From IMG/VR virus record IMGVR_UViG_3300035698_017256, positions 1-32,814 of that record: DNA of 32,814 bases. The stretch is one strand, 5' to 3'. Position numbers and translations under genes: made by a program. Each line of letters opens with the position of its first letter. Position 1 is the first letter of the stretch. The notes under the pieces were generated by a model that searched no databases, had not been told where the DNA came from, and saw only the letters and a list, made by a program, of their open reading frames with translations. This DNA comes from a virus. Shown one piece after another: positions 2,191 through 24,731 of this stretch.

Positions 2191-2742
2191 GTGGCGAAAA
2201 AAAAATTAGAATTCTCAACTGAGAAACGGAAGATTAACGAGCTTATTGATTATACGTACAATCCAAGAACGTTAAGCGAGAAGCAATTCAAAGATCTAAA
2301 GGCATCGTTCGAGAAATTTGGATATGTTGAAATTTGCGCCATTAACTCAGATAACACCATTATTGCAGGACACCAACGAGTTCACGTTATGAAAGATCTA
2401 GGATGGAACGATAGGGAAATTGAGGTAAGGGTGCCTAATCGATTACTCACAGAGACTGAGTTTCAGGAGTACTTAATTAGATCTAACAAGAATGGCGGCG
2501 AGTGGTGCTACGACATATTGGGTAATAATTTCGAGGTAGACCTGCTCGTTGAATCTGGCTTCACAATAAACGAGCTTCATTTAGGTGACTGGGAATCTGA
2601 CCTGGACGACTCAGTTGATGAAAGTTCAGAACAGAAGATTTCAGGAGTGGTAAAAATTCAATGCCTTGAGGTTGATAAGGAGTCTATAAAATCAGAATTA
2701 ACCACTATTTTAGCTCAATATGAACAAGTCAAAATTTCATGA
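2191..2742 (+). CDS. ParB/sulfiredoxin-fold protein, DpdB-like candidate
   Basis: The 183-residue protein starts at GTG 2191 behind AAAGG. Residues 13-110 form a ParB-like nuclease-fold domain: NPRTLS near 24-29, then IIAGHQRVHVMKDLGW at 57-72, the GHxR signature of the superfamily, and NKNGGEWCYD near 99-108. The remainder is acidic and ends in a small beta-rich tail. It overlaps the DpdA gene by 23 bases, which argues for coupled translation. In bacterial dpd clusters, DpdB is described as a ParB/Srx-type ATPase that works with DpdA to insert preQ0 into DNA, so a DpdB-like partner role is attractive. Generic phage ParB-like proteins near DNA-modification enzymes are the alternative. Confidence 0.7.
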   Translation: MAKKKLEFSTEKRKINELIDYTYNPRTLSEKQFKDLKASFEKFGYVEICAINSDNTIIAGHQRVHVMKDLGWNDREIEVRVPNRLLTETEFQEYLIRSNKNGGEWCYDILGNNFEVDLLVESGFTINELHLGDWESDLDDSVDESSEQKISGVVKIQCLEVDKESIKSELTTILAQYEQVKIS

Positions 2743-3556
2743 TCAAAAATTAAATATTCTTGTCTCTTATGCGTATTGGAACAAGCCTATTGAAGAAATG
2801 TTAAAAAAATACGAAAAAGATATTTGTTTAATTATTGACTCAGGAGCCTTTACAGCATGGACAAAAGGCAAATGTATTCAATTAATGGAATATTGTAATT
2901 TTTTAAATAATCTGTCAATTAAACCCTGGCGTTATTTTATGCTGGATGTGATACGGAATCCAGAGCAAACGAGAAATAATTATAGCTCAATGCTGGAGAA
3001 TGGATTTAATCCAATCCCAGTTTTTACGCGCGGTGAAGAATTTGATATGATAGACCATTATTATCAAAATTCTGACGTTTTAGCTTTGGGTGGGTTTGGA
3101 GGCACCAAGGGGAATCTTGATGCAATAAAGAAAACCATGCGACATGTAAAGGATAGGAAAATCCACTGGCTTGGATTTACAAGAATGGATTTTGTTAAGC
3201 ATTACCATCCTTATATGTGCGATTCCTCCACTTGGTCATCTGGGATACGATTTGCACGTATAAATTTAACACTGTCGAATGGAATGACCGCATCAATTGA
3301 GAGGAAAGATTTCAAGAAAAGACCTGATAACCTCATTTACCAAGCTGTTGAGAATTTGGGATTTAATCCCATGGATCTAGCTAAGAAGAATTTTTGGAAT
3401 CAAAAAAATTTAAGCAGAATAGGCTTAGCTACTCAGATTAAAATGATGTTAGAGGTAAAACATAGATTTGGTACTAATTTATTTATAGCATTAACAAAAA
3501 GTAAGCATATGAAAATTGCCATAGAAGAATTTGTTAAATTGAAACAATTACATTAA
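2720..3556 (+). CDS. dpdA: DpdA, DNA 7-deazaguanine transglycosylase (phage type)
   Basis: A 278-residue protein of the tRNA-guanine-transglycosylase superfamily, in the short phage form. The signature IIDSGAFTAWTKGK (38-51) carries Asp40, the expected general acid/base. FMLDVI carries Asp76, LALGGFGG (121-128) is the glycine-rich base-pocket loop, and CDSSTWSSG (167-175) is characteristic of phage DpdA. It would swap guanine in DNA for a 7-deazaguanine base. The start ATG overlaps the ParB-like gene and has no clear ribosome site, so it probably relies on translational coupling. The coding sequence is noticeably more A+T-rich than folE or queD nearby (about 13 G/C in the 60 bases from 2881), hinting at separate acquisition. 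Confidence 0.85.
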   Translation: MNKSKFHDQKLNILVSYAYWNKPIEEMLKKYEKDICLIIDSGAFTAWTKGKCIQLMEYCNFLNNLSIKPWRYFMLDVIRNPEQTRNNYSSMLENGFNPIPVFTRGEEFDMIDHYYQNSDVLALGGFGGTKGNLDAIKKTMRHVKDRKIHWLGFTRMDFVKHYHPYMCDSSTWSSGIRFARINLTLSNGMTASIERKDFKKRPDNLIYQAVENLGFNPMDLAKKNFWNQKNLSRIGLATQIKMMLEVKHRFGTNLFIALTKSKHMKIAIEEFVKLKQLH

Positions 3557-3565
3557 AGGATCGTT

Positions 3566-4234
3566 GTGGAGAATATGCCGGACTTTATTGAATATATTAA
3601 AAATCAGGGAATTTCATGTTTTGCGAATCAAAACATCTCAGAGATTGGATTAAATGCAACTCAGCTTAACAGCATGGAAAAAACAATCTCCACGCACTTT
3701 AGGATGATTATGGAGGCATTGCTTATTGACGTAAGCAACGATCCCAACACTCAGGATACCCCAGATAGGGTAGCTAAAATGATGGTTCGCGAGATATTTA
3801 AAGGACGCTTTGAGCCAAGACCAAAAATGACTACCTTTCCGAATAGTCAAAAAGTTAACGAGATTTTCACTATTGGTCCTATCTCAATTAAGTCGGCATG
3901 CTCACATCATTTTGTCCCATTTATCGGCGATGTGTGGATTGGCATCATTCCAAGCGATAAGCTATTAGGTTTATCAAAATTTGCTAGACTCACTCACTGG
4001 GTGATGGCAAGACCTCATATCCAAGAGGAGGCTATCAAAATGCTAGCGGATGAGATTGAAGAAGTCATTAAACCACAAGGGCTTGCCATCGTGATGAAAG
4101 CTAAGCATCTTTGCATGAGCTGGCGAGGGGTTGAGGAGAATTGTGCTGAAATGACAAGCAGCCTAGTGAGGGGATCATTTAAAAATCCTGAGACGAGAAA
4201 TGAGTTTTTTAAACTCATTGAGATGAAAAAATAA
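3566..4234 (+). CDS. folE: GTP cyclohydrolase I
   Basis: A 222-residue FolE-type enzyme that converts GTP to 7,8-dihydroneopterin triphosphate, the first step toward 7-deazaguanines. The family core is clear: TPDRVAKMM (65-73), then SACSHHFVPFIGDVWIG (110-126), with Cys112 and the following His pair as zinc ligands, and LSKFARL (136-142). RPHIQEEA (149-156) follows, and KHLCMSWRGVEE (180-191) carries the third ligand Cys183. The length matches bacterial FolE. I read it from GTG 3566 behind AAGGA; an ATG at 3575 is a possible alternative. It is followed without a gap by the methyltransferase, whose ATG overlaps the folE TAA. A queuosine-type role is favoured over folate by the queD and queE neighbours. 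Confidence 0.92.
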   Translation: MENMPDFIEYIKNQGISCFANQNISEIGLNATQLNSMEKTISTHFRMIMEALLIDVSNDPNTQDTPDRVAKMMVREIFKGRFEPRPKMTTFPNSQKVNEIFTIGPISIKSACSHHFVPFIGDVWIGIIPSDKLLGLSKFARLTHWVMARPHIQEEAIKMLADEIEEVIKPQGLAIVMKAKHLCMSWRGVEENCAEMTSSLVRGSFKNPETRNEFFKLIEMKK

Positions 4235-4983
4235 TGGGATGGAATGCTCAGGATTACAAAAAACAAGGATTTATTCAAGAAAAATTAAGCCTAGAGATGA
4301 TAGATAAATTGGAATTATCAAATTTTAATAACATACTCGATCTTGGGTGTGGCACTGGGAACGTTACTCATCGTATGGCACACAAGGCAAGCTCTTCAAG
4401 GGTAGTCGGGCTTGATATCTGCGATAACATGATTGAGCAAGCTTGCAGTGATTATTCAAATCTTAAAAATTTGTCATTCACACAAAAATCAATTGAAGAG
4501 CTAGATTATTCAAATGAATTTGAATTAATCACAAGTTTCTTTTCTCTGCACCATGTTAACAATCATGAGCTAGCTATAGGAAACGTGGCCAAATCGTTGA
4601 AAAATAAAGGGAAAATTTGTTTTTTGATGATTTCTAATGTTAATCCATTCTTGAAGCGAATTATTGAAAATAACCATCTTTTGCAAAAGCTCAGGCAAAA
4701 GCAAACTCCAATTGAAATAAATTATTATAAAAAATTGTTAGAGAAATTCAAATTCAATATTGATTTGTTGGTGGAGAGTAGAATTATAATTGAATTTGAA
4801 AAACAGCTCGATTTAATTGAAAGCCATATGAGCTGGTTGCCAGCAGCTAGCGAACTTTCCGTTTCTCAGTGTTTAAAAATAGCAACTGACATGGCTCAAG
4901 CTGAAACGGGTATCATACCCAGCAATCAATCAGTGAAAGCATCTTGGATTATTTTAAAGGTTATAGCTTCAATTGAAAAATAA
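4234..4983 (+). CDS. class I SAM-dependent methyltransferase
   Basis: A 249-residue Rossmann-fold methyltransferase. Motif I is NILDLGCGTGN (33-43), the acidic ribose-binding residue is Asp61 in VVGLDICDNM, and the motif IV region is LITSFFSLHHVNN near residues 98-110. The overall shape recalls the BioC / trans-aconitate methyltransferase group, small-molecule enzymes that often methylate carboxylates. No target-recognition domain or DPPY-type motif of DNA methyltransferases is present. It lies between folE and queD with a one-base overlap upstream, so a role in the 7-deazaguanine pathway is likely. A methylated base such as a CDG ester or N-methyl derivative is my inference. The gene is very A+T-rich (about 15 G/C in the 60 bases from 4681), like dpdA. 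Confidence 0.8.
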   Translation: MGWNAQDYKKQGFIQEKLSLEMIDKLELSNFNNILDLGCGTGNVTHRMAHKASSSRVVGLDICDNMIEQACSDYSNLKNLSFTQKSIEELDYSNEFELITSFFSLHHVNNHELAIGNVAKSLKNKGKICFLMISNVNPFLKRIIENNHLLQKLRQKQTPIEINYYKKLLEKFKFNIDLLVESRIIIEFEKQLDLIESHMSWLPAASELSVSQCLKIATDMAQAETGIIPSNQSVKASWIILKVIASIEK

Positions 4984-4996
4984 AAACGGGAGATCC

Positions 4997-5437
4997 ATGA
5001 AATTTACATGTTCTAGATACCACGATTTCAGTGCAGGACATCGCGTATACCAGCATGAAAGCAAATGCCAGAATTTGCATGGGCATAATTATAGAGTTCA
5101 CTTTACGTGCTCAGCTGACGGGCTAGATCCAATAGGTCGGGTTATTGATTTTTCCGTCATTAAGAAAGAACTTTGTATGTGGCTGGAGGATCACTGGGAT
5201 CATCGGTTTTTAATTTGGGAGGATGATCCGTGGGCGATGTTTCTTCCTGAAATAGATGCATCTGTAGTGATTGTGACATTCAATCCCACCGCCGAAAATA
5301 TGGCGAAATATTTGTTCGAGACAATAGCACCGCTTCAATTGATTGGCACAGGCGTAGAGGTTATAGAAATAGTAATCGAAGAAACTCGAAAGTGCTCAGC
5401 AGGGGTCACGGGGGTATATAATGCACTATCCAGTTAA
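4997..5437 (+). CDS. queD: 6-carboxy-5,6,7,8-tetrahydropterin synthase
   Basis: A 146-residue QueD enzyme that turns dihydroneopterin triphosphate into 6-carboxytetrahydropterin. The zinc site is His15 (FSAGHRV) with His28 and His30 (LHGHNY), and the catalytic Cys24 lies in ESKCQNLHGH. The later WDHRFL motif and the Glu in VIEETRKC complete the active site. Length is close to bacterial QueD. I chose ATG 4997 because GGGAG precedes it by five bases; an upstream in-frame start at 4973 would overlap the methyltransferase and adds only MKNKNGRS. The end overlaps queE by 17 bases, marking a tightly coupled pathway operon. Confidence 0.92.
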   Translation: MKFTCSRYHDFSAGHRVYQHESKCQNLHGHNYRVHFTCSADGLDPIGRVIDFSVIKKELCMWLEDHWDHRFLIWEDDPWAMFLPEIDASVVIVTFNPTAENMAKYLFETIAPLQLIGTGVEVIEIVIEETRKCSAGVTGVYNALSS

Positions 5438-6062
5438 TGAGTATTTTCACACTATGCAGGGAGAGGGATTTCATACGGGTACCCCATCCTTTTTCATACG
5501 CTTGCAGGGTTGCGGTGTAGGGTGTAAATTTTGTGATACAAAATACACTTGGTCAACGAAAACACCTATTGTTCCGCACGACCAGCTAAAGCCGGAATCT
5601 CCTCAGCATGCCCTTATGACAGCAAAGGAATTGTTAGATATCTCTGAGGAGTATCACATAGTGGTAACGGGTGGAGAACCATGCATTCACAATCTTTATA
5701 TTCTGACCAATGCAGCTATTGAGTGTGGAAAATCTATTCAGATTGAAACATCAGGGACTGAAATTATCGAAGTGCATCCTAAAACGTGGGTTACACTGAG
5801 TCCGAAGCTAAATAACCCAGCAGGCAAGCCTACGCTAAAACAGGCAATCACCTTAGCCAATGAATTTAAATTTCCCGTGGCTACGCCAAACGATGTTAGG
5901 GCAATGGATGCATTTTTTCGGGATGTGAATATTGATGGTCGACTGGTTTGGCTGCAACCAATCTCCCAGGGAGTGGAAGCAACTAATCTATGTCTTGAGG
6001 CAGCAAAGCAAAGAAATATGCGTGTTAGCGTTCAATCACATAAATATATAGGACTGAGGTAA
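5421..6062 (+). CDS. queE: 7-carboxy-7-deazaguanine synthase, radical SAM
   Basis: A 213-residue radical-SAM enzyme that contracts 6-carboxytetrahydropterin to 7-carboxy-7-deazaguanine. The [4Fe-4S] cluster motif is CX3CX2C: Cys31, Cys35 and Cys38 in GCGVGCKFCDTKYTW. EYFHTMQGEG (7-16) is the usual N-terminal QueE motif, VVTGGEPC binds SAM, and QSHKYIGLR closes the protein as in typical QueE. Translation begins inside queD behind a GGGGG tract. It is the last pathway gene in the window: no QueC (7-cyano-7-deazaguanine synthase) follows, and the terminase small subunit starts five bases later. The phage-made product is therefore expected to be CDG unless the host supplies QueC. Confidence 0.93.
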   Translation: MHYPVNEYFHTMQGEGFHTGTPSFFIRLQGCGVGCKFCDTKYTWSTKTPIVPHDQLKPESPQHALMTAKELLDISEEYHIVVTGGEPCIHNLYILTNAAIECGKSIQIETSGTEIIEVHPKTWVTLSPKLNNPAGKPTLKQAITLANEFKFPVATPNDVRAMDAFFRDVNIDGRLVWLQPISQGVEATNLCLEAAKQRNMRVSVQSHKYIGLR

Positions 6063-6066
6063 GGCA

Positions 6067-6531
6067 ATGGCAAAGACTAATTCAACAAGAGAAGCAGCTG
6101 AAGCTACAAGAAAAAGCAATCGTGGCAGGAAAAAAATCAAAGTCTCATTCGAGAAGATCAAGAAAGAGGTTAACCTAAATCAGGTTGTTTACTGGATTGG
6201 ATTACAAGCTACAGCAGAAGAAATAGCGGGTTCTTTTAGAATTTCAACGTCAACTTTAGATTTAAAATTAAAAGAAAACTTTGGAATGAATTTTACCGAG
6301 CTAAAAAAAACATTAGGAGATGGGGCAGAAGGAAAGCTTACTTTACGGCGCTATCAATTTGCATTAGCTGAAAGAAACGCAGCCTTAGCAATTTGGCTCG
6401 GTAAGCAATGGCTCGGGCAAAAAGATGTTATTGAAAATATCAATCACAATAAGGAAGAGGTGGTTTCTATTTCAATACCTGACAATGGCCGGGGCGATTG
6501 CACGTTGCCCAGGAAGGAATATGAGAACTAG
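6067..6531 (+). CDS. terminase small subunit (putative)
   Basis: A 154-residue basic protein with a Lys/Arg-rich N-terminus (residues 15-30). A helix-turn-helix-like region, VYWIGLQATAEEIAGSFRIS, lies at about 40-60 and would bind the packaging site. The second half contains LTLRRYQFALAERNAALAIWLGKQWLGQKD near residues 98-127, an arrangement frequently seen in small terminase subunits just before the large subunit. It overlaps the large-subunit gene by 11 bases. The family assignment rests on this motif layout and position rather than on catalytic residues. It begins the packaging and head block immediately after the modification cassette. Confidence 0.75.
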   Translation: MAKTNSTREAAEATRKSNRGRKKIKVSFEKIKKEVNLNQVVYWIGLQATAEEIAGSFRISTSTLDLKLKENFGMNFTELKKTLGDGAEGKLTLRRYQFALAERNAALAIWLGKQWLGQKDVIENINHNKEEVVSISIPDNGRGDCTLPRKEYEN

Positions 6532-7864
6532 AGCGCAACCGGGTCCGCAATCTGATTTCCTTCAATCGCCCTCAGACATAGTTATTTATGGGGGTGCGGC
6601 AGGTGGAGGAAAAACTTATGCTTTGCTTTTGGAATGTTTAAGGCACCGGAATCGCCCGAATTTTAGTGCGGTAATCTTTAGGCGTGAATCTACCCAGGTT
6701 CGAAACCCTGGTGGATTGTGGGATACTTCTGTTGAACTTTTCCCCTTCGCTGGAGGAGTTCCAAAAGAGAGTAGCCTTGAATGGTATTTTCCAAGTAACG
6801 CGAAGATAAAGTTTTCACATATGGAGTACGAAAAGAATCGATTCAGTTGGCAGGGAAGCCAGATAGCATTGATTGGATTTGACGAGCTTACCCATTTTTC
6901 GTGGAAGCAATTTGTTTATATGCTTTCTCGCAATAGATCGACTTGCGGTGTTCGGCCATACATACGAGCTACAACAAATCCCGATCCTGATAGTTGGGTG
7001 AGGCATTTTATTGATTGGTGGATTGATGAGCAGACAGGGTATCCAATACAAGAAAGAAGCGGATGCGAAAGGTGGTTTGTCGTTGTCAACGATGAAACGT
7101 TGTGGGCTAACTCAAAAGAAGAGCTTGAACAACAATATCCTGATTGCGTTCCGAAGAGCGTATCCTTTGTCGCATCTACTGTTTATGACAACCAAATATT
7201 GATGGAAAAAGATCCGGGGTACATTGCGAATTTGAAGGCAATGCCCAGGTATGAGCGTGAACAGTTATTGCTAGGCAATTGGAATATTCGCCCAACTGCG
7301 GGGATGTTCTTTCAGCGTTCTTATTTTGAAATTCTGAAAATGATTCCAAGAAATACAACCGCAGTGCGGTATTGGGACAGGGCAGCTACAAAAGAGACTG
7401 GTACTAATGATCCTGATTACACGGTAGGCCTCAAGCTTGAAAAAGATCAGAATGGAATTTTCTATGTTACGGATATTGTTCGACTGAGGGATACCCCTCT
7501 TGGAGTAATGACCGCGATAAAGAATACTGCAAGTCAAGATGGACAGCATTGTATTATAGGTTTGGAGCAAGATCCGGGACAAGCTGGAGTCGTTGAAGTC
7601 GACTATCTTGTGAGACAGCTCAGTGGATACATTGTAAAAACTGTTAAGGTAAGCAAAGATAAAGTCACAAGATCTTTGCCGTGTAGCAGTCAATGTGAAG
7701 CGGGAAATGTTAAATTACTCCACAGCCGTTGGAATGAGGATCTTTTTAGAGAGCTAGAAAATTTCCCCGAAGGTGGCCATGATGACCAAGTGGACGCGCT
7801 CAGTGGTGCATTCAATTTGATGGCGGAGTCCCAGTATAATCTATCAAGTTTGGCAAGGTGGTAA
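6521..7864 (+). CDS. terL: terminase large subunit
   Basis: A 447-residue ATPase-nuclease that packages DNA into the prohead. Walker A is YGGAAGGGKT with Lys31, and Walker B is ALIGFDELTHF with Asp121 and Glu122. RATTNPDPDSWV (149-160) is the coupling region. The RNase-H-like nuclease has Asp286 (RYWDRAA), Glu349 with Asp351 (GLEQDPGQAG) and the Asp cluster at 421-425 (GGHDDQVDA). I start at ATG 6521 because AGGAAGG sits directly upstream; an in-frame extension back to 6425 lies inside the small-subunit gene and reads as out-of-frame sequence. It ends two bases before the preferred portal start. Confidence 0.95.
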   Translation: MRTRAQPGPQSDFLQSPSDIVIYGGAAGGGKTYALLLECLRHRNRPNFSAVIFRRESTQVRNPGGLWDTSVELFPFAGGVPKESSLEWYFPSNAKIKFSHMEYEKNRFSWQGSQIALIGFDELTHFSWKQFVYMLSRNRSTCGVRPYIRATTNPDPDSWVRHFIDWWIDEQTGYPIQERSGCERWFVVVNDETLWANSKEELEQQYPDCVPKSVSFVASTVYDNQILMEKDPGYIANLKAMPRYEREQLLLGNWNIRPTAGMFFQRSYFEILKMIPRNTTAVRYWDRAATKETGTNDPDYTVGLKLEKDQNGIFYVTDIVRLRDTPLGVMTAIKNTASQDGQHCIIGLEQDPGQAGVVEVDYLVRQLSGYIVKTVKVSKDKVTRSLPCSSQCEAGNVKLLHSRWNEDLFRELENFPEGGHDDQVDALSGAFNLMAESQYNLSSLARW

Positions 7865-10183: not shown

Positions 10184-11331
10184 ATATAGCAAGATTTGAC
10201 CGGGGGACGATTGAGTCCACTTCAATGTATACGGATGAAGGATATTTACTTTGTGACGCAGTGGTAACCAAGACCGGAGTTTTCATTTATCAAAATCTTG
10301 ACGGAACAGTGCGCCGCGAATTAAGACATCCCGATGATGTACTCAGTGCCGCAAGTCTAGATACGATAAAATTAATCCCCGTCACAAATAATCATCCTCC
10401 AGAAAGATTAGTCGATGCTGAAAATGCTCAAAGGCTTTCGGTTGGTTACACTGGTGAATGCGTTAAGCCGGATGGAAAATTAATTTATTCGAATTTCAAA
10501 GTTACCGATCAGGCTACGATTAATGAAATTAATCATAATGGAAAACGCGAGTTATCATTAGGATATACAGTAGATTTAATCGATGAAAAAGGTAATTTTG
10601 ATGGGGAGGAATACGATAGTCGACAAACGAATATCAGATACAACCATCTTTCAATCGTTCAAACAGCTAGAGCGGGTAGAGAGGCTAGAATCTCTTTAGA
10701 CCGAATGGATGCCGAAGAAATCACACAAGAAGAGGTAGATAAAATGGCAAAAAGAAAAGTAAAGATCGATGAAGATGAATTTATGCTTGAACCCGAAGCG
10801 GCGGACAGCGTTGAAAGCATGCTTGCAGACATGAAAAATCTAAGCTCAGAAAAAGAGCGCGTTGAAAATGAAATGACCACGATCAAAGATAAGCTTGAAA
10901 AAGCCCTTGGAGAACGTGACGCAGCAAAAGAAGAGGCAGCGCAATTGCTAAAGGAAAACTCAGAAATTAAAGAAGAAAAAAATGATTCCTCTTTAATTGA
11001 TAATCGAGTTCGTGAGCGTCTACGCCTACTAAAGCAAGTTAGCTCAGTTTTAGATTCTGAGAGTTTGGACAAAGTTCACGATTGTTCAGATCTTGAGATA
11101 AAGAAAATGGTTGTTAAAGCTAAATGTCCAAGTGCCAATCTTGATGGAAAATCTGAAATCTATATCGATGCGCGTTATGATGCGGTAATTGAAGATCTCC
11201 CCAAAAATCAAGTTATCGTTAAAAAGCACTCAGAAAGCAAAGCGGATACTGCTAGTGCCTCAGCGTCCGATTCAAGGTCTAGAATGATTCAGAACATGAA
11301 AGAAAGTTATAAGCGTGAAGGAGTGAAATAA
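10180..11331 (+). CDS. DUF2213 prohead protease fused to scaffold
   Basis: A 383-residue protein with two parts. Residues 1-185 match the DUF2213 type, believed to be the prohead maturation protease of this phage group: VTNNHPPERL with His72 and KRELSLGYTV with Ser126 are the probable catalytic positions. From about 190 the chain turns highly charged, with a long coiled coil at roughly 218-275 (alternating Glu/Lys/Leu), as in scaffolding proteins. An internal ATG at 10744 with its own ribosome site could give the scaffold alone. The gene overlaps the MuF gene by four bases and the cement gene by one. Confidence 0.85.
   Translation: MNIARFDRGTIESTSMYTDEGYLLCDAVVTKTGVFIYQNLDGTVRRELRHPDDVLSAASLDTIKLIPVTNNHPPERLVDAENAQRLSVGYTGECVKPDGKLIYSNFKVTDQATINEINHNGKRELSLGYTVDLIDEKGNFDGEEYDSRQTNIRYNHLSIVQTARAGREARISLDRMDAEEITQEEVDKMAKRKVKIDEDEFMLEPEAADSVESMLADMKNLSSEKERVENEMTTIKDKLEKALGERDAAKEEAAQLLKENSEIKEEKNDSSLIDNRVRERLRLLKQVSSVLDSESLDKVHDCSDLEIKKMVVKAKCPSANLDGKSEIYIDARYDAVIEDLPKNQVIVKKHSESKADTASASASDSRSRMIQNMKESYKREGVK
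10744..11331 (+). CDS. possible separately translated scaffold (internal start)
   Basis: An in-frame ATG at codon 189 of the protease gene is preceded by AAGAAGAGG (10727-10735) with eight bases of spacing, a better ribosome site than several true starts here. The product, 195 residues beginning MAKRKVKIDEDEF, would contain only the coiled-coil scaffold half. Lambda C/Nu3 is the known precedent for a scaffold made from inside a protease gene. This is a prediction from the ribosome site and domain boundary, not proof of use. Confidence 0.5.
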   Translation: MAKRKVKIDEDEFMLEPEAADSVESMLADMKNLSSEKERVENEMTTIKDKLEKALGERDAAKEEAAQLLKENSEIKEEKNDSSLIDNRVRERLRLLKQVSSVLDSESLDKVHDCSDLEIKKMVVKAKCPSANLDGKSEIYIDARYDAVIEDLPKNQVIVKKHSESKADTASASASDSRSRMIQNMKESYKREGVK

Positions 11332-12116
11332 TGGCCCAATTATCTTATGGATTTTTGATGGAAGTGGCTAGCGCCGGTTTGCTAGCCGATTGCGGTTTTA
11401 AAAACTGTCTATCCCCAAGGGCATACGAAGATATCCCTATTGGTCGTGGAGTAGCAAAGGTTGTCGGTGCCGATATGGCGGTAAGGCTTCCCCAGCAAAA
11501 TTTATCCACAGTGGTTCTTGATGGGGATTTAGTTACATCAAACTCAATCGCCGTGACGGTAAATGGCAATGCACTAACGCCAATTGTTTTCGCTTCAGAT
11601 CACGATACGACAATGACAGCGATTGCCGTTGCGATTGCATTAGAGGATAATATTGCCTCAGCAGTAGTCAGTGATGCAAACAACCGAACAATTACAGTGA
11701 CAGCAGATCAAGGTTTTGTTGCCGTTGTAAATTCTTTTGTTGTGACGCTAGGAGCTGGACAAGCAACGGCGACAATCACTAACGGCACCCAAGATTCTTT
11801 CTACGGTGTTGCTCTTAGAATCCAAAACAAAGAGAACTTGCTCAGTTCAACTGGATCAGCTGGACCAGCTCCATATTATGAGGGTGAAGCAATTAGCTTG
11901 CTAACTAGGGGTCGTGTCTACGTTTATGTTGAAGACGCGGTGACTTCAGACGATCCGGTTTACCTAAGATTTGTTCAAGGTGGAGACGCTGACGAGCTTA
12001 TTGGACAATTCAGGAGTGACGCAGATAGTGGTGACGCTATACTTGTAAGCGATGCCCGTTGGATTGTAGGTGCCGCCGCTGACGGCCTGGCCGTTCTTGA
12101 AATAAACATGCCTTAG
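11331..12116 (+). CDS. head cement/decoration protein with inserted module
   Basis: A 261-residue virion protein between the protease-scaffold and the major capsid gene, the usual place for a cement or decoration protein. The flanks read like a small cement protein: CGFKNCLSPRAYEDIPIGRG and VVGADMAVRLPQQ before, FYGVALRIQNKENLL and YVYVEDAVTSDDPVYLRF after. Residues 61-149 interrupt this with a beta-rich module (VVLDGDLVTSNSIAVTVNGN to TLGAGQATATI) that recurs in the sheath and baseplate proteins, making the protein longer than it would otherwise be. The ribosome site GAAGGAG is strong and the ATG overlaps the previous stop. Confidence 0.72.
   Translation: MAQLSYGFLMEVASAGLLADCGFKNCLSPRAYEDIPIGRGVAKVVGADMAVRLPQQNLSTVVLDGDLVTSNSIAVTVNGNALTPIVFASDHDTTMTAIAVAIALEDNIASAVVSDANNRTITVTADQGFVAVVNSFVVTLGAGQATATITNGTQDSFYGVALRIQNKENLLSSTGSAGPAPYYEGEAISLLTRGRVYVYVEDAVTSDDPVYLRFVQGGDADELIGQFRSDADSGDAILVSDARWIVGAAADGLAVLEINMP
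11511..11777 (+). repeat. dispersed virion module, copy 1 (cement protein)
   Basis: Residues 61-149 of the cement protein. The shared protein pattern is a strand with DxDLVTSNSI, a strand ending in TVNG, VxFxSDxxTTM, a short helix, then DANNRTITV and a closing TLGAxQA. DNA identity with other copies is low, so only translation reveals the repeat. Confidence 0.8.
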
Positions 12117-15396: not shown

Positions 15397-17568
15397 ATGC
15401 CTCTTAGTGACATTGTAAACGTCCAAATTACTAGAAATACCCAATCCGTTTCACGAGCTGGATTTGGAACATTGATGGTCCTTGGGACTCATAAAGCTTT
15501 CAATGAGCGCATTAAATATTACTCAAGCCTTTCAGAGATAGCCGCTGATTTTTCGTCCTCTTCACTTGAATATATAGCATCCTCAGATGTGTTCTCACAA
15601 AGTCCCAGGCCAACGCGAATGGCTATAGGGCGAAGGGCAGCAGATAATGCGACCATCGAAATAGAAACCGCCATGGCACCTTTTGACTATACAGTCGAAA
15701 TTAATGACGAATCGATAACCGTTTCCTCAGCAGCCACAGCGCAGGAATCGCAGATAGTTTTAGATGCTGACTTGGTGACGAGCAATCTAGTTAAAGTAGT
15801 GCTTAATGGCACAAATGTAGGAACGACCACAAGCGTTCTGGATTTTGATATCGATTTTGTGGCCAGCAACAGTATTCTTGCTACCGTTAATGCAGCACCT
15901 CTTTCCCCTGTAGTTTTTGCTAGTGACCAAGCTACAACTATTGCAGCTTTGGCCACTGAAATTCAGGGGGATGCCGCAGTAACAAGCGCAACGGTAACTG
16001 GTGCTAGACAAATTACCGTAGTTTTCACAGCAGCAGGAGACAATACCGTAGACTCAGTTGTAACGACTCTTGGAGCCTCCCAAGCCGTTGCTACAATTTC
16101 AGAAGGTGGGTTCGTTTTTGACACTGACCACCTGACTACTATGCAAAATATAGCCACGGCGCTAGAGCTAGATTCGGCGGTTAATAGTGTGACGATCACT
16201 GACGCAAACAATCGAACAATGAATATTTTTGGTGAACCTAATGAAAATGCGATTGTAAGTATTTTCCTTGTTTCTTTAGGAGCATCGCAGGCTGGTACAG
16301 TTATCACAAATAGCGATCAAGCACCCAGCAAGCTAAGCATTGCCGAAACTCTAACCACAGCAATCAATAACGAAACTGGGACAACGGGAGTTAGTGCAGC
16401 AGAGCCGGGTATACCAGATGGCACAATAAATTTAAGCGCAGTGACTCCAGGTACCGCTTATACACTGACTGTTAGCACTAATATTATTAATCCAAACGCC
16501 GCTAGAGTTACGGTTACGCAGGCACAGCCATCGACTGAGTATGTCGTTACGATAAACGGTGTTAAAATCAGTTATACATCTCCAATCGATGTTCAAGACA
16601 ACGAAACGATTGCTGCCGCTTTAGTCGTAGCTATCAACTCATCAACGTTAGCCGTTTCGGCCACTGATAATTTAGATGGATCTTTTGAGCTAGAAGACGA
16701 TGCCTCTCCATTCACGCTTGTAGTAAGCGAGATAATCCTATCTAAAGATTTTGGGATAATTATTGCACCGTTAACGGCCTCAGACTCAGTCACTGACGAT
16801 CTTGATACCATCGAAAATATTGATAGCGATTGGTATGCCCTAGCCTACACCGGTAGAACAAAAGCAGTAATTCAATCAATTGCCGGATGGATTGAAACGC
16901 GCTCAAAGATTTTTGGCACTAGCTCAGATGATGCGGTAATCTTGAATACAGCAGTAGGCACAGATCTTACATCCATCGCGGCATTACTCAACCAAGCTGG
17001 CTATGTACGATCTTTTGTAATGTATCATCAAGATGCTGCAAATGATTTCCCCGAGTGCGCGTGGTTCGGCAGGGTTCTCCCAACGGATCCGGGGTCCATT
17101 ACATGGAAGTTCAAGACCCTATCTAGCATTACATATAGCAAGCTAACGACAGCCGAAAGCTCCAACGCTCGAAATAAAAAAGCCAATACGTATGAGTACA
17201 TCGGCGGCGTAGGAATCACTAGAGAGGGAACGATGGCGCAAGGTGAATTTATTGACATCATCAGAGGCGTTGACTGGCTTACCGCAAGAATCCAGGAATA
17301 CGTTTACTCATTGCTAGTTAATAACGACAAAATTTCTTACACAGATGCAGGAATAGCAGCAGTGGAAGCAGAAGTCAGGAGAGCTTTAGATCAGGGCGTG
17401 AGTAATGATTTTATCGCATCAGATCCAGCCTATACCGTTACAGTTCCAACAGCAGCAAGCGCGTCCCCAGCAGACAAGGCCGCTAGAATTTTGAAAAACG
17501 TTTCATTCAATGCAACACTTGCCGGCGCTATCCATGCCGTAGAAATTAGCGGAGTCGTTTCGGTTTAA
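15397..17568 (+). CDS. tail sheath protein, DUF3383, with nested insertions
   Basis: A 723-residue contractile sheath protein. The N-terminal [20 protein letters not shown] (2-21) is the DUF3383 signature. The C-terminal third, [20 protein letters not shown] to [16 protein letters not shown], is the sheath core used in polymer contacts. Between them, residues about 94-455 are beta-rich extra domains: a carrier domain (94-118 continued at 310-375), an uninterrupted second carrier (376-455), and within the first carrier two copies of the dispersed module, one nested inside the other (119-309). This makes it markedly longer than a plain sheath. The extra domains probably project from the tail surface, since the core must stay free to contract. 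The tube gene follows 26 bases later. Confidence 0.85.
15751..16323 (+). repeat. dispersed virion module, copy 2 (sheath, interrupted)
   Basis: Residues 119-309 of the sheath. The first half is [20 protein letters not shown] (119-138). The second half resumes at [18 protein letters not shown] (239-256) and continues through [10 protein letters not shown] to [11 protein letters not shown]. Between them sits a complete copy 3. Joined, the halves align along their length with copy 1 in the cement protein. Confidence 0.8.
15835..16107 (+). repeat. dispersed virion module, copy 3 (nested in copy 2)
   Basis: Residues 147-237 of the sheath, starting [19 protein letters not shown] and ending [13 protein letters not shown]. 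It is complete and lies inside copy 2, entering after the first hairpin. By eye about 52 of 88 aligned residues match the nested copy in the baseplate J protein (23145-23411), the closest pair in the window. Confidence 0.8.
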
Positions 17569-22126: not shown

Positions 22127-22482
22127 TGCTCGATTTAGAATTAGATAATTCTGGTGATTTGCTAATTAGCAATTATGATTTAGATATTCTTAGCGGAGTC
22201 GATCAAATCGCGCAAAATGCACTGATTAGGCTAAAGTTTTTCCTAGGTGAATGGTTTTTAGATATTACAGCAGGCATGCCATATTATCAGGATTTTTTCA
22301 TCAAAGCACCGAATAGGATTAGGGTGGAGAGCGTTATCAAGGAAGAGATAATAAACACTGATGGAATACTTGAAATAACAGCCTTTAGCTCAGATTTTGA
22401 CGCAGTATCCAGAGAATTTACCGTTAATTTTAGTGCTCTGGCGGTGGATGGGCCATTTAACTTAGAGGTAACAATACCATGA
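22126..22482 (+). CDS. baseplate wedge protein, gp25/GPW-like
   Basis: A 118-residue protein read from ATG 22126, seven bases after GAGGGGGA and overlapping the spike stop. The core is SGVDQIAQNALIRLKFFLGE, then WFLDITAGMPYYQDFFIKAP, the pattern of gp25/W-type wedge proteins, in which a conserved Glu-Trp pair (GEWFLD) sits before the loop. It attaches to the baseplate J protein encoded next, with which it overlaps by four bases. Well conserved and lacking insertions, unlike its neighbour. Confidence 0.85.
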   Translation: MLDLELDNSGDLLISNYDLDILSGVDQIAQNALIRLKFFLGEWFLDITAGMPYYQDFFIKAPNRIRVESVIKEEIINTDGILEITAFSSDFDAVSREFTVNFSALAVDGPFNLEVTIP

Positions 22483-24731
22483 CATACGGACTAACCCCCG
22501 CAGGATTTAACCGCAAGCGCCTGCCTGATTTGAAGGCTGACCAGGAGAATGCATTAATAGCAGAGTTTGGAGAAATTAACGTAGAGCCTCAGTCAGTATT
22601 TGGGCAAATTATAGGTGTGATGGGGAAAACTTTTGCAGACTTGTGGGAAGAGCTGGAGGACGTTTACTTTAGCCAGTACCCAGGAACAGCCGAAGGAGTC
22701 GCACTAGATTATGTAGTCGCCCTAAACGGGATCACAAGACTCGCAGCTGAAAGAACTCTTGTAATTGGAGTCGCTAAAGGAGTCGAAGGGACTTTAATTA
22801 CTCAAGGAGCCTTAGCTACACAATTAACATCTGGACAGTCTTTTGCAGCAGAATTTGACACTACAATAACGCAAAATGCAGCAGCGGTAACGTTAAATTC
22901 AGTAGATTCAGCGGTGGCGGAATCTTATAACGTATTGATTAACGGCGTTAGCCATATCTACAGTCTTCCAAAAATTGAATTTGAAGATCTATTTGTAACA
23001 TCAAACTCTATCGTTGTTAGCGTGAACGGTACTGAGTTAGCGGCCGTTCCATTCAACACCGACAGTCAAACAACGATTGATGATCTTGTCACAGCCTTAG
23101 CCACGGTTACTGAAATTAATTCAGTCACGGCAAAAATTGGGCTAGTTGTGAATTTTGACTCTGATTTTGTGACGTCCAATTCAATTGTAGCGACAATTAA
23201 CGGCACTCCTATTTCTTCTGTTCCGTTCAATACGGATCAGGCCACAACCATTGCAGATCTTGCGACAGCTATCCAGGGGAATGCAGATGTTACTAGTGCC
23301 TCAGTTACCAGCACGCGCGAAATAACCATTGTTCCGGTTGACGAAGGCACTTTTGAAATTGATTCAATTGTCACAACCGGCGGAGCCAGCCAGCCAGTAC
23401 CGATAGATCAAAGAATAGATCTGATTGCCGAAGATGGCGAATCGGTTGTTTTGAATTTCATAAGCATCACTGGGGGAGCTAGCCAAAGTGCTTATGTGAT
23501 TTCGGCGCTTCAACCTGCCACAATTGCTAGCGTGGTAGCTGGCTTAGTTGCTGTTATTAATGCAGGAATTCAGCCGTTAAGCTCCATAGATAATTTAGAT
23601 GATACCTTTACCGTTACCGCTTCAGATAGCGCCGTTCCCTATAGCATTTCTTTATCTTCAAATATGACAATTCAGGAAGTTAGCTCACAAGTTAGATTCC
23701 TAGCGGATGTATTTGGCCCAATAGCTGCGCCAATAGGTTCAATGACTGAAATTTCAACACCTCTCAGTGGGTGGGAAAGTGTTACGAATTTAAAAGCTGG
23801 AGTAACCGGACGCGACATCGAGACGGATGCAGAATTAAGGCTACGCCGGCAAAATTCGCTACAAATTTTAGGCGCTGGGACAGTTGAGGCCATACGCTCA
23901 AGATTGCTTCAGCAGGTTTCGGGAGTGACGGAAGCTTATGTTTTTGAGAATAGGACAATGACAGAAGAGGACATTATAGTCATCCTTGACTCTGATTTGA
24001 TAACCGGGAACTCAGTTGTTATAACAGTTAATGGTGTGGCACTTTCGACGATAAACTTTACGTCCACCCATCTCGCTACGATGCAACTTATTGAATTGCA
24101 GCTTGAAGCACTTGATAGCATTGAAATTGTAACTGTCGGCGGAACTGGGAATCGCACAATGACCATTGAGATGGCTCAGGGCTATGAGATCACAATTAAC
24201 AATATTCAAGTGACCGGCGGAGCTAGTCAGACCGCTTATAATTTGTCCGGGGGAAGATTCCCGAAATCGTTTGAAGCGGTGGTCCAGGGTGGATCGGATG
24301 AAGATATCGCTAATAAAATTTGGCAAACAAAGCCCGCAGGAATCCAAACGTTTGGCAATACAAGCTTTACGATTACCGATAGCATGAACAATAGTCAGGT
24401 AATTAATTTTAGCAGGCCAACGCCAATCTACATCTGGGTGGATGTGGATTTAACGCTATATACTGAGGAAACATTCCCATCCAACGGCATAGATCTTGTC
24501 GAACAGGCTTTTGTGGATTATGGCAATCTGTTAATTATCGGCGAAGACGTATTGTTCCAGCGGGTTCTTTGTCAGATATTTGAGATCTCAGGAGTTAAAT
24601 CAGGTGCCTTGCAGACAGCGTTCACGCTTACAGAAACGGATAGCCCCAGCTATGGGACCGCCGATATTTCAATATCTGAAAATCAGATAGCTATTTTCTC
24701 GATAGATCGAAGCTCCGCGGAGGTTGTTTAG
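22479..24731 (+). CDS. baseplate J (gp47-like) protein with three inserted modules
   Basis: A 750-residue baseplate wedge protein. The native core is seen at the N-terminus (GLTPAGFNRKRLPDLKADQE, then YPGTAEGVALDYVVALNGIT), in the middle (SGWESVTNLKAGVTGRDIET, DAELRLRRQNSLQILGAGTV) and at GGRFPKSFEAVVQGGSDEDI followed by IWQTKPAGIQTFGN. Three extra beta-rich modules interrupt it: an outer one (166-222 and 312-339) split by a complete nested one (223-311), all within a carrier domain (134-165, 340-400), and a third at 500-589 between VFENRTM and the SFEAVVQGG strand. Inserts probably face outward from the baseplate rim. The following gene starts in a one-base overlap. Confidence 0.85.
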   Translation: MTYGLTPAGFNRKRLPDLKADQENALIAEFGEINVEPQSVFGQIIGVMGKTFADLWEELEDVYFSQYPGTAEGVALDYVVALNGITRLAAERTLVIGVAKGVEGTLITQGALATQLTSGQSFAAEFDTTITQNAAAVTLNSVDSAVAESYNVLINGVSHIYSLPKIEFEDLFVTSNSIVVSVNGTELAAVPFNTDSQTTIDDLVTALATVTEINSVTAKIGLVVNFDSDFVTSNSIVATINGTPISSVPFNTDQATTIADLATAIQGNADVTSASVTSTREITIVPVDEGTFEIDSIVTTGGASQPVPIDQRIDLIAEDGESVVLNFISITGGASQSAYVISALQPATIASVVAGLVAVINAGIQPLSSIDNLDDTFTVTASDSAVPYSISLSSNMTIQEVSSQVRFLADVFGPIAAPIGSMTEISTPLSGWESVTNLKAGVTGRDIETDAELRLRRQNSLQILGAGTVEAIRSRLLQQVSGVTEAYVFENRTMTEEDIIVILDSDLITGNSVVITVNGVALSTINFTSTHLATMQLIELQLEALDSIEIVTVGGTGNRTMTIEMAQGYEITINNIQVTGGASQTAYNLSGGRFPKSFEAVVQGGSDEDIANKIWQTKPAGIQTFGNTSFTITDSMNNSQVINFSRPTPIYIWVDVDLTLYTEETFPSNGIDLVEQAFVDYGNLLIIGEDVLFQRVLCQIFEISGVKSGALQTAFTLTETDSPSYGTADISISENQIAIFSIDRSSAEVV
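22974..23495 (+). repeat. dispersed virion module, copy 4 (baseplate J, interrupted)
   Basis: Residues 166-339. The first part, IEFEDLFVTSNSIVVSVNGT to INSVTAKIG, stops before the strand that should read like NRTITV. That strand resumes at RIDLIAEDGESVVLNFISIT after a complete copy 5. It enters the same carrier loop (after YNVLINGVSHIYS) as the insertion in the sheath. Confidence 0.8.
23145..23411 (+). repeat. dispersed virion module, copy 5 (nested in copy 4)
   Basis: Residues 223-311, from VVNFDSDFVTSNSIVATING to TTGGASQPVPID. It is a complete copy inside copy 4, entering after the helix. The entry point in copy 4 is different from the one used in the sheath (after the first hairpin), so the two nestings are not a simple shared duplication. 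Confidence 0.8.
23976..24245 (+). repeat. dispersed virion module, copy 6 (baseplate J, second site)
   Basis: Residues 500-589, IVILDSDLITGNSVVITVNG to VTGGASQTAYNL. It is uninterrupted and lies in the native baseplate fold between VFENRTM and GGRFPKSFEAVVQGG, so a second, independent insertion site exists in the same protein. It retains GNRTMTI and TGGASQ. Confidence 0.8.

Follow-up and report, generated by a model that had tools for sequence, protein, structure and literature searches.

A phage 7-deazaguanine cassette with a methyltransferase gene and no queC, and the methylated base that it may place in DNA

Which base does a phage insert into its DNA when it encodes the 7-deazaguanine pathway, but not the enzyme that leads to preQ0? 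This question is raised by a viral DNA of 32,814 bases (the window), which is the whole of IMG/VR record IMGVR_UViG_3300035698_017256, classed as linear and possibly a fragment. It is known that FolE, QueD and QueE make 7-carboxy-7-deazaguanine (CDG), that QueC makes preQ0 via ADG, and that DpdA exchanges guanine in DNA (PMC13329287, PMC6884629). In the window, a ParB-like gene, dpdA, folE, a methyltransferase gene, queD and queE form one tightly packed run on the + strand (2191-6062), and the QueC family PF06508 had no match anywhere in the 32.8-kb record, beyond which the rest of the phage genome may extend. The original prediction, that dpdA, folE, queD and queE stand in one rightward run with their key residues, that no QueC is visible and that the pathway as encoded stops at CDG, agrees with the motifs, the search of the record and the gene content, respectively; the extent it gave was also right, but it passed over the ParB-like gene at 2191 and the methyltransferase gene at 4234-4983.

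We propose, with confidence just short of an even chance, that this operon modifies DNA with a 7-deazaguanine through a CDG branch bypassing preQ0, in which CDG is methylated by the S-adenosylmethionine (SAM) methyltransferase and inserted by DpdA. Phage cassettes without queC have so far been explained by conjecture only (Bipper, PMC6884629), and a methyltransferase that recurs at the queC site leads to a specific and testable prediction, namely an undescribed DNA base.

The methyltransferase and the pathway genes of the window

The added gene (4234-4983, + strand) encodes a class I SAM-dependent methyltransferase of 249 amino acids; its start (ATG) shares bases with the stop of folE (TAATG), and the queD ATG lies 13 bases beyond its own stop. 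The protein has motif I (LDLGCGTG), the acidic residue after strand 2 (VVGLD) and the Rossmann core, with strong Pfam matches to Methyltransf_31 (1e-20), Methyltransf_25 (70.9 bits) and Methyltransf_11. The best NCBIfam match is BioC, at 77.1 bits against a cut-off of 184.95, so the protein is not a BioC member. Sequence matches with solved structures include phosphoethanolamine N-methyltransferase, juvenile hormone acid methyltransferase, trans-aconitate methyltransferase and BioC; several of these enzymes methylate carboxylates, which is only a hint at the acceptor, since the superfamily is broad. The structure model is unreliable past residue 134, the C-terminal half being of low confidence. 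A methyltransferase of this kind inside the cassette is unusual in itself (71 bits to Methyltransf_25), and none of the 85 queC-positive records searched whole had a Methyltransf_25 match above the cut-off.

The remaining genes, all on the + strand, comprise a DpdA with its catalytic aspartates together with FolE, QueD and QueE, as in a phage 7-deazaguanine DNA-modification cassette; neither QueC nor Gat-QueC, as needed for the preQ0 pathway, is encoded in the record, which may be incomplete. The dpdA gene (2720-3556; DNA-guanine transglycosylase, 278 amino acids; phrog_887, E = 3e-34) keeps Asp40, Asp76 and Asp168, of which the latter two are invariant in 110 homologues and Asp40 is kept in 109/110, the remaining row being a gap; the protein is at most 46% identical to the DpdA of uncultured viruses. 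The folE gene (3566-4234; GTP cyclohydrolase I, 222 amino acids; alternative ATG at 3575 possible) matches PF01227 GTP_cyclohydroI (1.3e-44, 152 bits) and has the CSHH and LCMSWRGV motifs, while queD (4997-5437; 6-carboxytetrahydropterin synthase; PF01242 PTPS, 1e-27, 97 bits; phrog_2389, 2e-49) has the C-x3-HGH motif and likely starts at ATG 4997, with GGGAG upstream, not at TTG 4973, where the open reading frame (ORF) opens. Both proteins are above the Pfam cut-offs and below the NCBIfam equivalog cut-offs (for FolE, TIGR00063 with 158 bits against 181.6). The queE gene (5421-6062; 7-carboxy-7-deazaguanine synthase, 213 amino acids) has the CxxxCxxC motif and reaches 217.8 bits with TIGR04322, above the curated cut-off of 200.

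The queC position in related cassettes

Related cassettes were collected from DpdA alignment scans of viral contigs (many) and bacterial genomes (a few), and from cultured phages (six); single-protein scans of viral contigs with the window DpdA or the window methyltransferase gave no matches, so alignments were needed. A scan with an alignment built on the window methyltransferase returned 69 phage methyltransferases of generic type, and none of them lay beside DpdA, FolE, QueD or QueC. All ORFs were searched with home-made profiles for DpdA, FolE, QueD, QueE, QueC and ParB, whose sensitivity was checked by Pfam QueC searches only, and removal of near-duplicates at 97% DpdA identity left 110 non-redundant cassettes. 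The queC gene is present in 95 of these, most commonly in the orders ParB-DpdA-QueC-FolE-QueD-QueE and ParB-DpdA-QueC-QueD-QueE-FolE, and lies directly 3' of dpdA in 79/110. The window and two mycobacteriophages, Bipper and Typha, are among the 15 without it, together with twelve more. Two QueC-like proteins (L041:5990-6589 and L072:10250-10759) are short and degenerate in appearance, without the canonical zinc motif; as a conservative choice, both cassettes were scored queC-positive. Cellulophaga phage phiSM, considered as a cultured queC-less case, was rejected because QueC is in its annotation.

In three queC-less cassettes (L034, L038 and L101), the queC slot after dpdA is filled by a 193-amino-acid protein with a DxGGxNG class I methyltransferase motif (the METHYLTRANSFERASE pattern), for which we coined the label MTA. 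With these three as queries six more MTA loci were found, and the DpdA scan gave two more. All eight non-redundant MTA genes, from uncultured phages (L034:1466-2047, L101:5369-5950, L158:1566-2144, L160:2205-2858, L161:5989-6561, L163:2154-2720, L198:1533-2111 and L206:3774-4352), are located immediately 3' of dpdA, at the queC site, in cassettes that lack queC, and no QueC was found in any of the 11 MTA-carrying records, searched whole. With the window set apart, no cassette has both MTA and QueC, 8 have MTA without QueC (8 of the 14 other queC-less cassettes), 95 have QueC without MTA and 6 have neither (Fisher p = 8e-9, shared ancestry ignored). Because some MTA loci were found through MTA searches, a recount was limited to clusters from the viral DpdA scans, which gave 5 with MTA and no QueC, 3 with neither, 82 with QueC only and none with both (p = 1e-6, shared ancestry again ignored). 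An internal positive control with the same logic is the gene with a DpdC domain (DUF6884, cluster assigned by eye), which is confined to queC-positive cassettes (21/95 vs 0/15); DpdC is required for dADG (PMC11888242).

The MTA structure model (pLDDT, the predicted local distance difference test, of 91) indicates a class I SAM methyltransferase along its whole length, and three MTA proteins had no tblastn match in 50,697 records of the cultured and annotated phage collection. MTA is apparently an undescribed class I methyltransferase family, and one outcome of this study is a candidate enzyme family. MTA cassettes resemble the window in lacking QueC and in having a class I SAM methyltransferase, but the MTA protein (193 amino acids, DxGGxNG) sits at the queC position, whereas the window enzyme (249 amino acids, BioC-like) lies between folE and queD. 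By phmmer, no homologue of the window methyltransferase was found among the ORFs of approximately 200 related loci, no MTA ORF being matched, and its hhalign alignment with MTA was limited to the surroundings of the SAM motif, about 70 columns. Independent recruitment is therefore suggested, and in the DpdA tree MTA rows stand in several places and require several state changes, cassette L160 sharing a clade of full support with two cassettes that have queC. Judged from these sequence comparisons, recruitment of methyltransferases into queC-less cassettes looks repeated.

Several points weigh against our proposal. The associations are phylogenetically uncorrected, with too few independent contrasts, although the two informative pairs (2/2) agree. 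The methyltransferase of the window stands alone, with no sequence homology to MTA, and may be a passenger in the operon; eight MTA clusters carry the general pattern, and one gene carries the window case. The matches by fold and by family are those of class I methyltransferases at large and do not point to a substrate. Nor do the class I fold and motifs determine the acceptor atom: the methyl group could go to the exocyclic amine of CDG, to another atom of the inserted base or to a neighbouring DNA base. Unrelated DNA methylation genes can land at the queC place, as shown by a D12-type adenine methyltransferase-like ORF (L145:3044-3844) in a queC-less cassette. We nevertheless regard these other targets as quite improbable, because both the window methyltransferase and MTA resemble small-molecule and not sequence-specific DNA methyltransferases; the carboxyl O-methyltransferases among the matches of the window enzyme (BioC, trans-aconitate, juvenile hormone acid) argue weakly in the same direction.

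The DpdA pocket loop and the inserted base

DpdA has a loop, GGLVGT (residues 124-129 by window numbering), that is similar to GGLAVG in tRNA-guanine transglycosylase (TGT); in the latter enzyme, a Val233Gly change makes the C7-substituent pocket larger (PMC3660597). At column 127, Val or Ala is found in 88/95 queC-positive vs 3/15 queC-less cassettes, ancestry being uncorrected; the queC-less residues are Asn, Gly and others, and the window has Gly127 (GGFGGT). Two of the seven queC-positive exceptions are L041 and L072, both with degenerate QueC-like proteins. The correlation argues that queC-less DpdAs receive a different base, and the change from Val/Ala to Gly is consistent with a C7 group bulkier than a nitrile, which makes column 127 a candidate specificity residue in DpdA. 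The match between column 127 and TGT Val233 is by motif only, as the profile alignment with E. coli TGT covered just the DSGGF motif, and independent contrasts for this column on the DpdA tree gave too few informative pairs. Cassettes of the L036 and L047 types, without QueC and MTA, share the altered loop as well, which also counts against our proposal; the loop may mark CDG as well as a CDG ester.

This loop bears on the possibility that the phage makes preQ0-type bases, with QueC supplied by the host or encoded in an unsequenced part of its genome. The record is a fragment and may be incomplete, many hosts encode QueC, and E. coli supplied preQ0 to the expressed DpdA of phage 9g (PMC6884629). 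However, the window loop is of the queC-less type and related cassettes nearly always keep queC beside dpdA (directly 3' in 79/110), so a borrowed or distant QueC, two of the three options of the original prediction, has lost ground. Bipper and Typha, which are among the closest cultured DpdA relatives of the window, are complete phages with no QueC in their whole genomes, and they infect mycobacteria, reported to lack any of the pathway genes (PMC6884629); QueC therefore need not come from the host. Altogether, we consider preQ0-type bases improbable here.

The third option of that prediction, plain CDG, remains the main rival, although we hold it to be unlikely; methylated CDG, which the prediction left out, is now best supported. 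If plain CDG were correct, DpdA would insert unmethylated CDG, and the methyltransferase would serve host takeover or another DNA or small-molecule target. In 2023, Cui et al. reportedly described dCDG in phage DNA, and other cassettes contain no homologue of the window methyltransferase. QueC and a Methyltransf_25 match are both missing from Bipper and Typha, as are QueC and MTA from L036 and L037; the altered DpdA loop is present in such cassettes too. CDG was also suggested for Bipper (PMC6884629). Against this, a random passenger gene would not account for the distribution of class I methyltransferases, which are frequent in cassettes without queC and were not found in those with it. The methyltransferase gene of the window lies between folE and queD, and its start is an overlapping one.

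Under the methylated CDG proposal, FolE, QueD and QueE would convert GTP to CDG, an activity deduced from genes and motifs, and the SAM methyltransferase would methylate CDG where other phages have QueC convert the carboxylate to the nitrile. Since the pathway ends at CDG by its gene anatomy and the one added enzyme is a methyltransferase, carboxylate methylation is the simplest reading. The likeliest target would be the C7 carboxylate, giving 7-methoxycarbonyl-7-deazaguanine, a neutral ester that would be near the amide base ADG in shape. Methylation could take place before or after the base swap by DpdA, on the free base or in DNA, and the modified guanine would block restriction enzymes like other 7-deazaguanines. 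We infer the enzyme activity, the acceptor atom, the order of steps and the final base. More generally, a SAM methyltransferase, recruited more than once, may have replaced QueC in a separate branch of the pathway; the methylated CDG that it makes, probably a methyl ester at C7, would be inserted into phage DNA by a DpdA whose pocket is reshaped. We give this scheme somewhat less than an even chance. If it is true, guanine with a neutral ester on its major-groove side would add to the known phage defences against restriction enzymes, and the ester could be a useful chemical handle.

Phage DpdA systems are already known. The literature searched, which did not include the key 2023 study, gave no methyltransferase in place of QueC, no MTA family and no CDG methyl ester or other methylated CDG base, and to our knowledge neither such a base nor a methyltransferase in the QueC role has been described before. 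In that study, Cui et al. are said to have described DpdM as a dPreQ1 methyltransferase with an unusual fold. DpdM, like the enzyme proposed here, is described as methylating a 7-deazaguanine of phage DNA, but its reported substrate is dPreQ1, and preQ1 needs QueC, while the window enzyme and MTA have the ordinary class I fold; this separation is by description only. A precedent for SAM-dependent esterification of a nucleobase carboxylate is CmoM, which makes 5-methoxycarbonylmethoxyuridine in tRNA (PMC12783734); it acts on a tRNA uridine, unlike the proposed CDG step, and the likeness noted is one of reaction.

Known phages and the surroundings of the cassette

The full-preQ0 phage cassettes (e.g., CRB2, Rosebush, 9g and CAjan) share DpdA, FolE, QueD and QueE with the window. 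They differ in encoding QueC or Gat-QueC and, in those examined, in containing no class I methyltransferase; the window is reversed on both points. Bipper and Typha, with the order ParB-x-DpdA-x-QueD-QueE-FolE-terS-terL, differ from the window in gene order, in having no class I methyltransferase match and in an extra gene after dpdA, which encodes a conserved protein of 141 amino acids between dpdA and queD (L005:2047-2472 and L006:2043-2468).

The first gene of the run (2191-2742, + strand) encodes a ParB-like protein of 183 amino acids (phrog_620, 4e-22; phrog_498 ParB domain, 8.5e-24) and overlaps dpdA by 23 bases. A ParB-like gene is located immediately 5' of dpdA in 83/102 scorable cassettes, which suggests that the protein is a functional partner of DpdA. 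A small phosphoribosyltransferase-like gene was also observed in 43/110 dpdA cassettes, with or without queC and often between queD and queE (e.g., L012:4443-4829, L036:2693-3076 and L041:7635-8033); its role is perhaps salvage of the released guanine.

Directly 3' of the cassette, the small and large terminase genes follow (6067-7864, + strand; Terminase_6N/6C). A cassette upstream of terS-terL is common to the window and mycobacteriophages CRB2, Bipper and Typha, and CRB2 is like the window also in its ParB-like gene, with the cassette directly 5' of the terminase genes. Megablast of the window against phages gave no match. In Methanoculleus virus L4768, which has the closest terminase, an annotated DNA modification methylase (L002:1242-2486) lies just 5' of the terminase genes, at a site corresponding to that of the ParB-dpdA cassette in the window. 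The gene content of the record is that of a contractile-tailed phage, with terminase, portal, Mu-F, DUF2213, major capsid, DUF3383 sheath-like and baseplate J proteins. Similar repeated inserts (e.g., 'VTSNSIVVSVNG...TTIADLATAIQ') are present in the sheath-like protein (15397-17568), in baseplate J (22479-24731) and in a protein of 261 amino acids (11331-12116).

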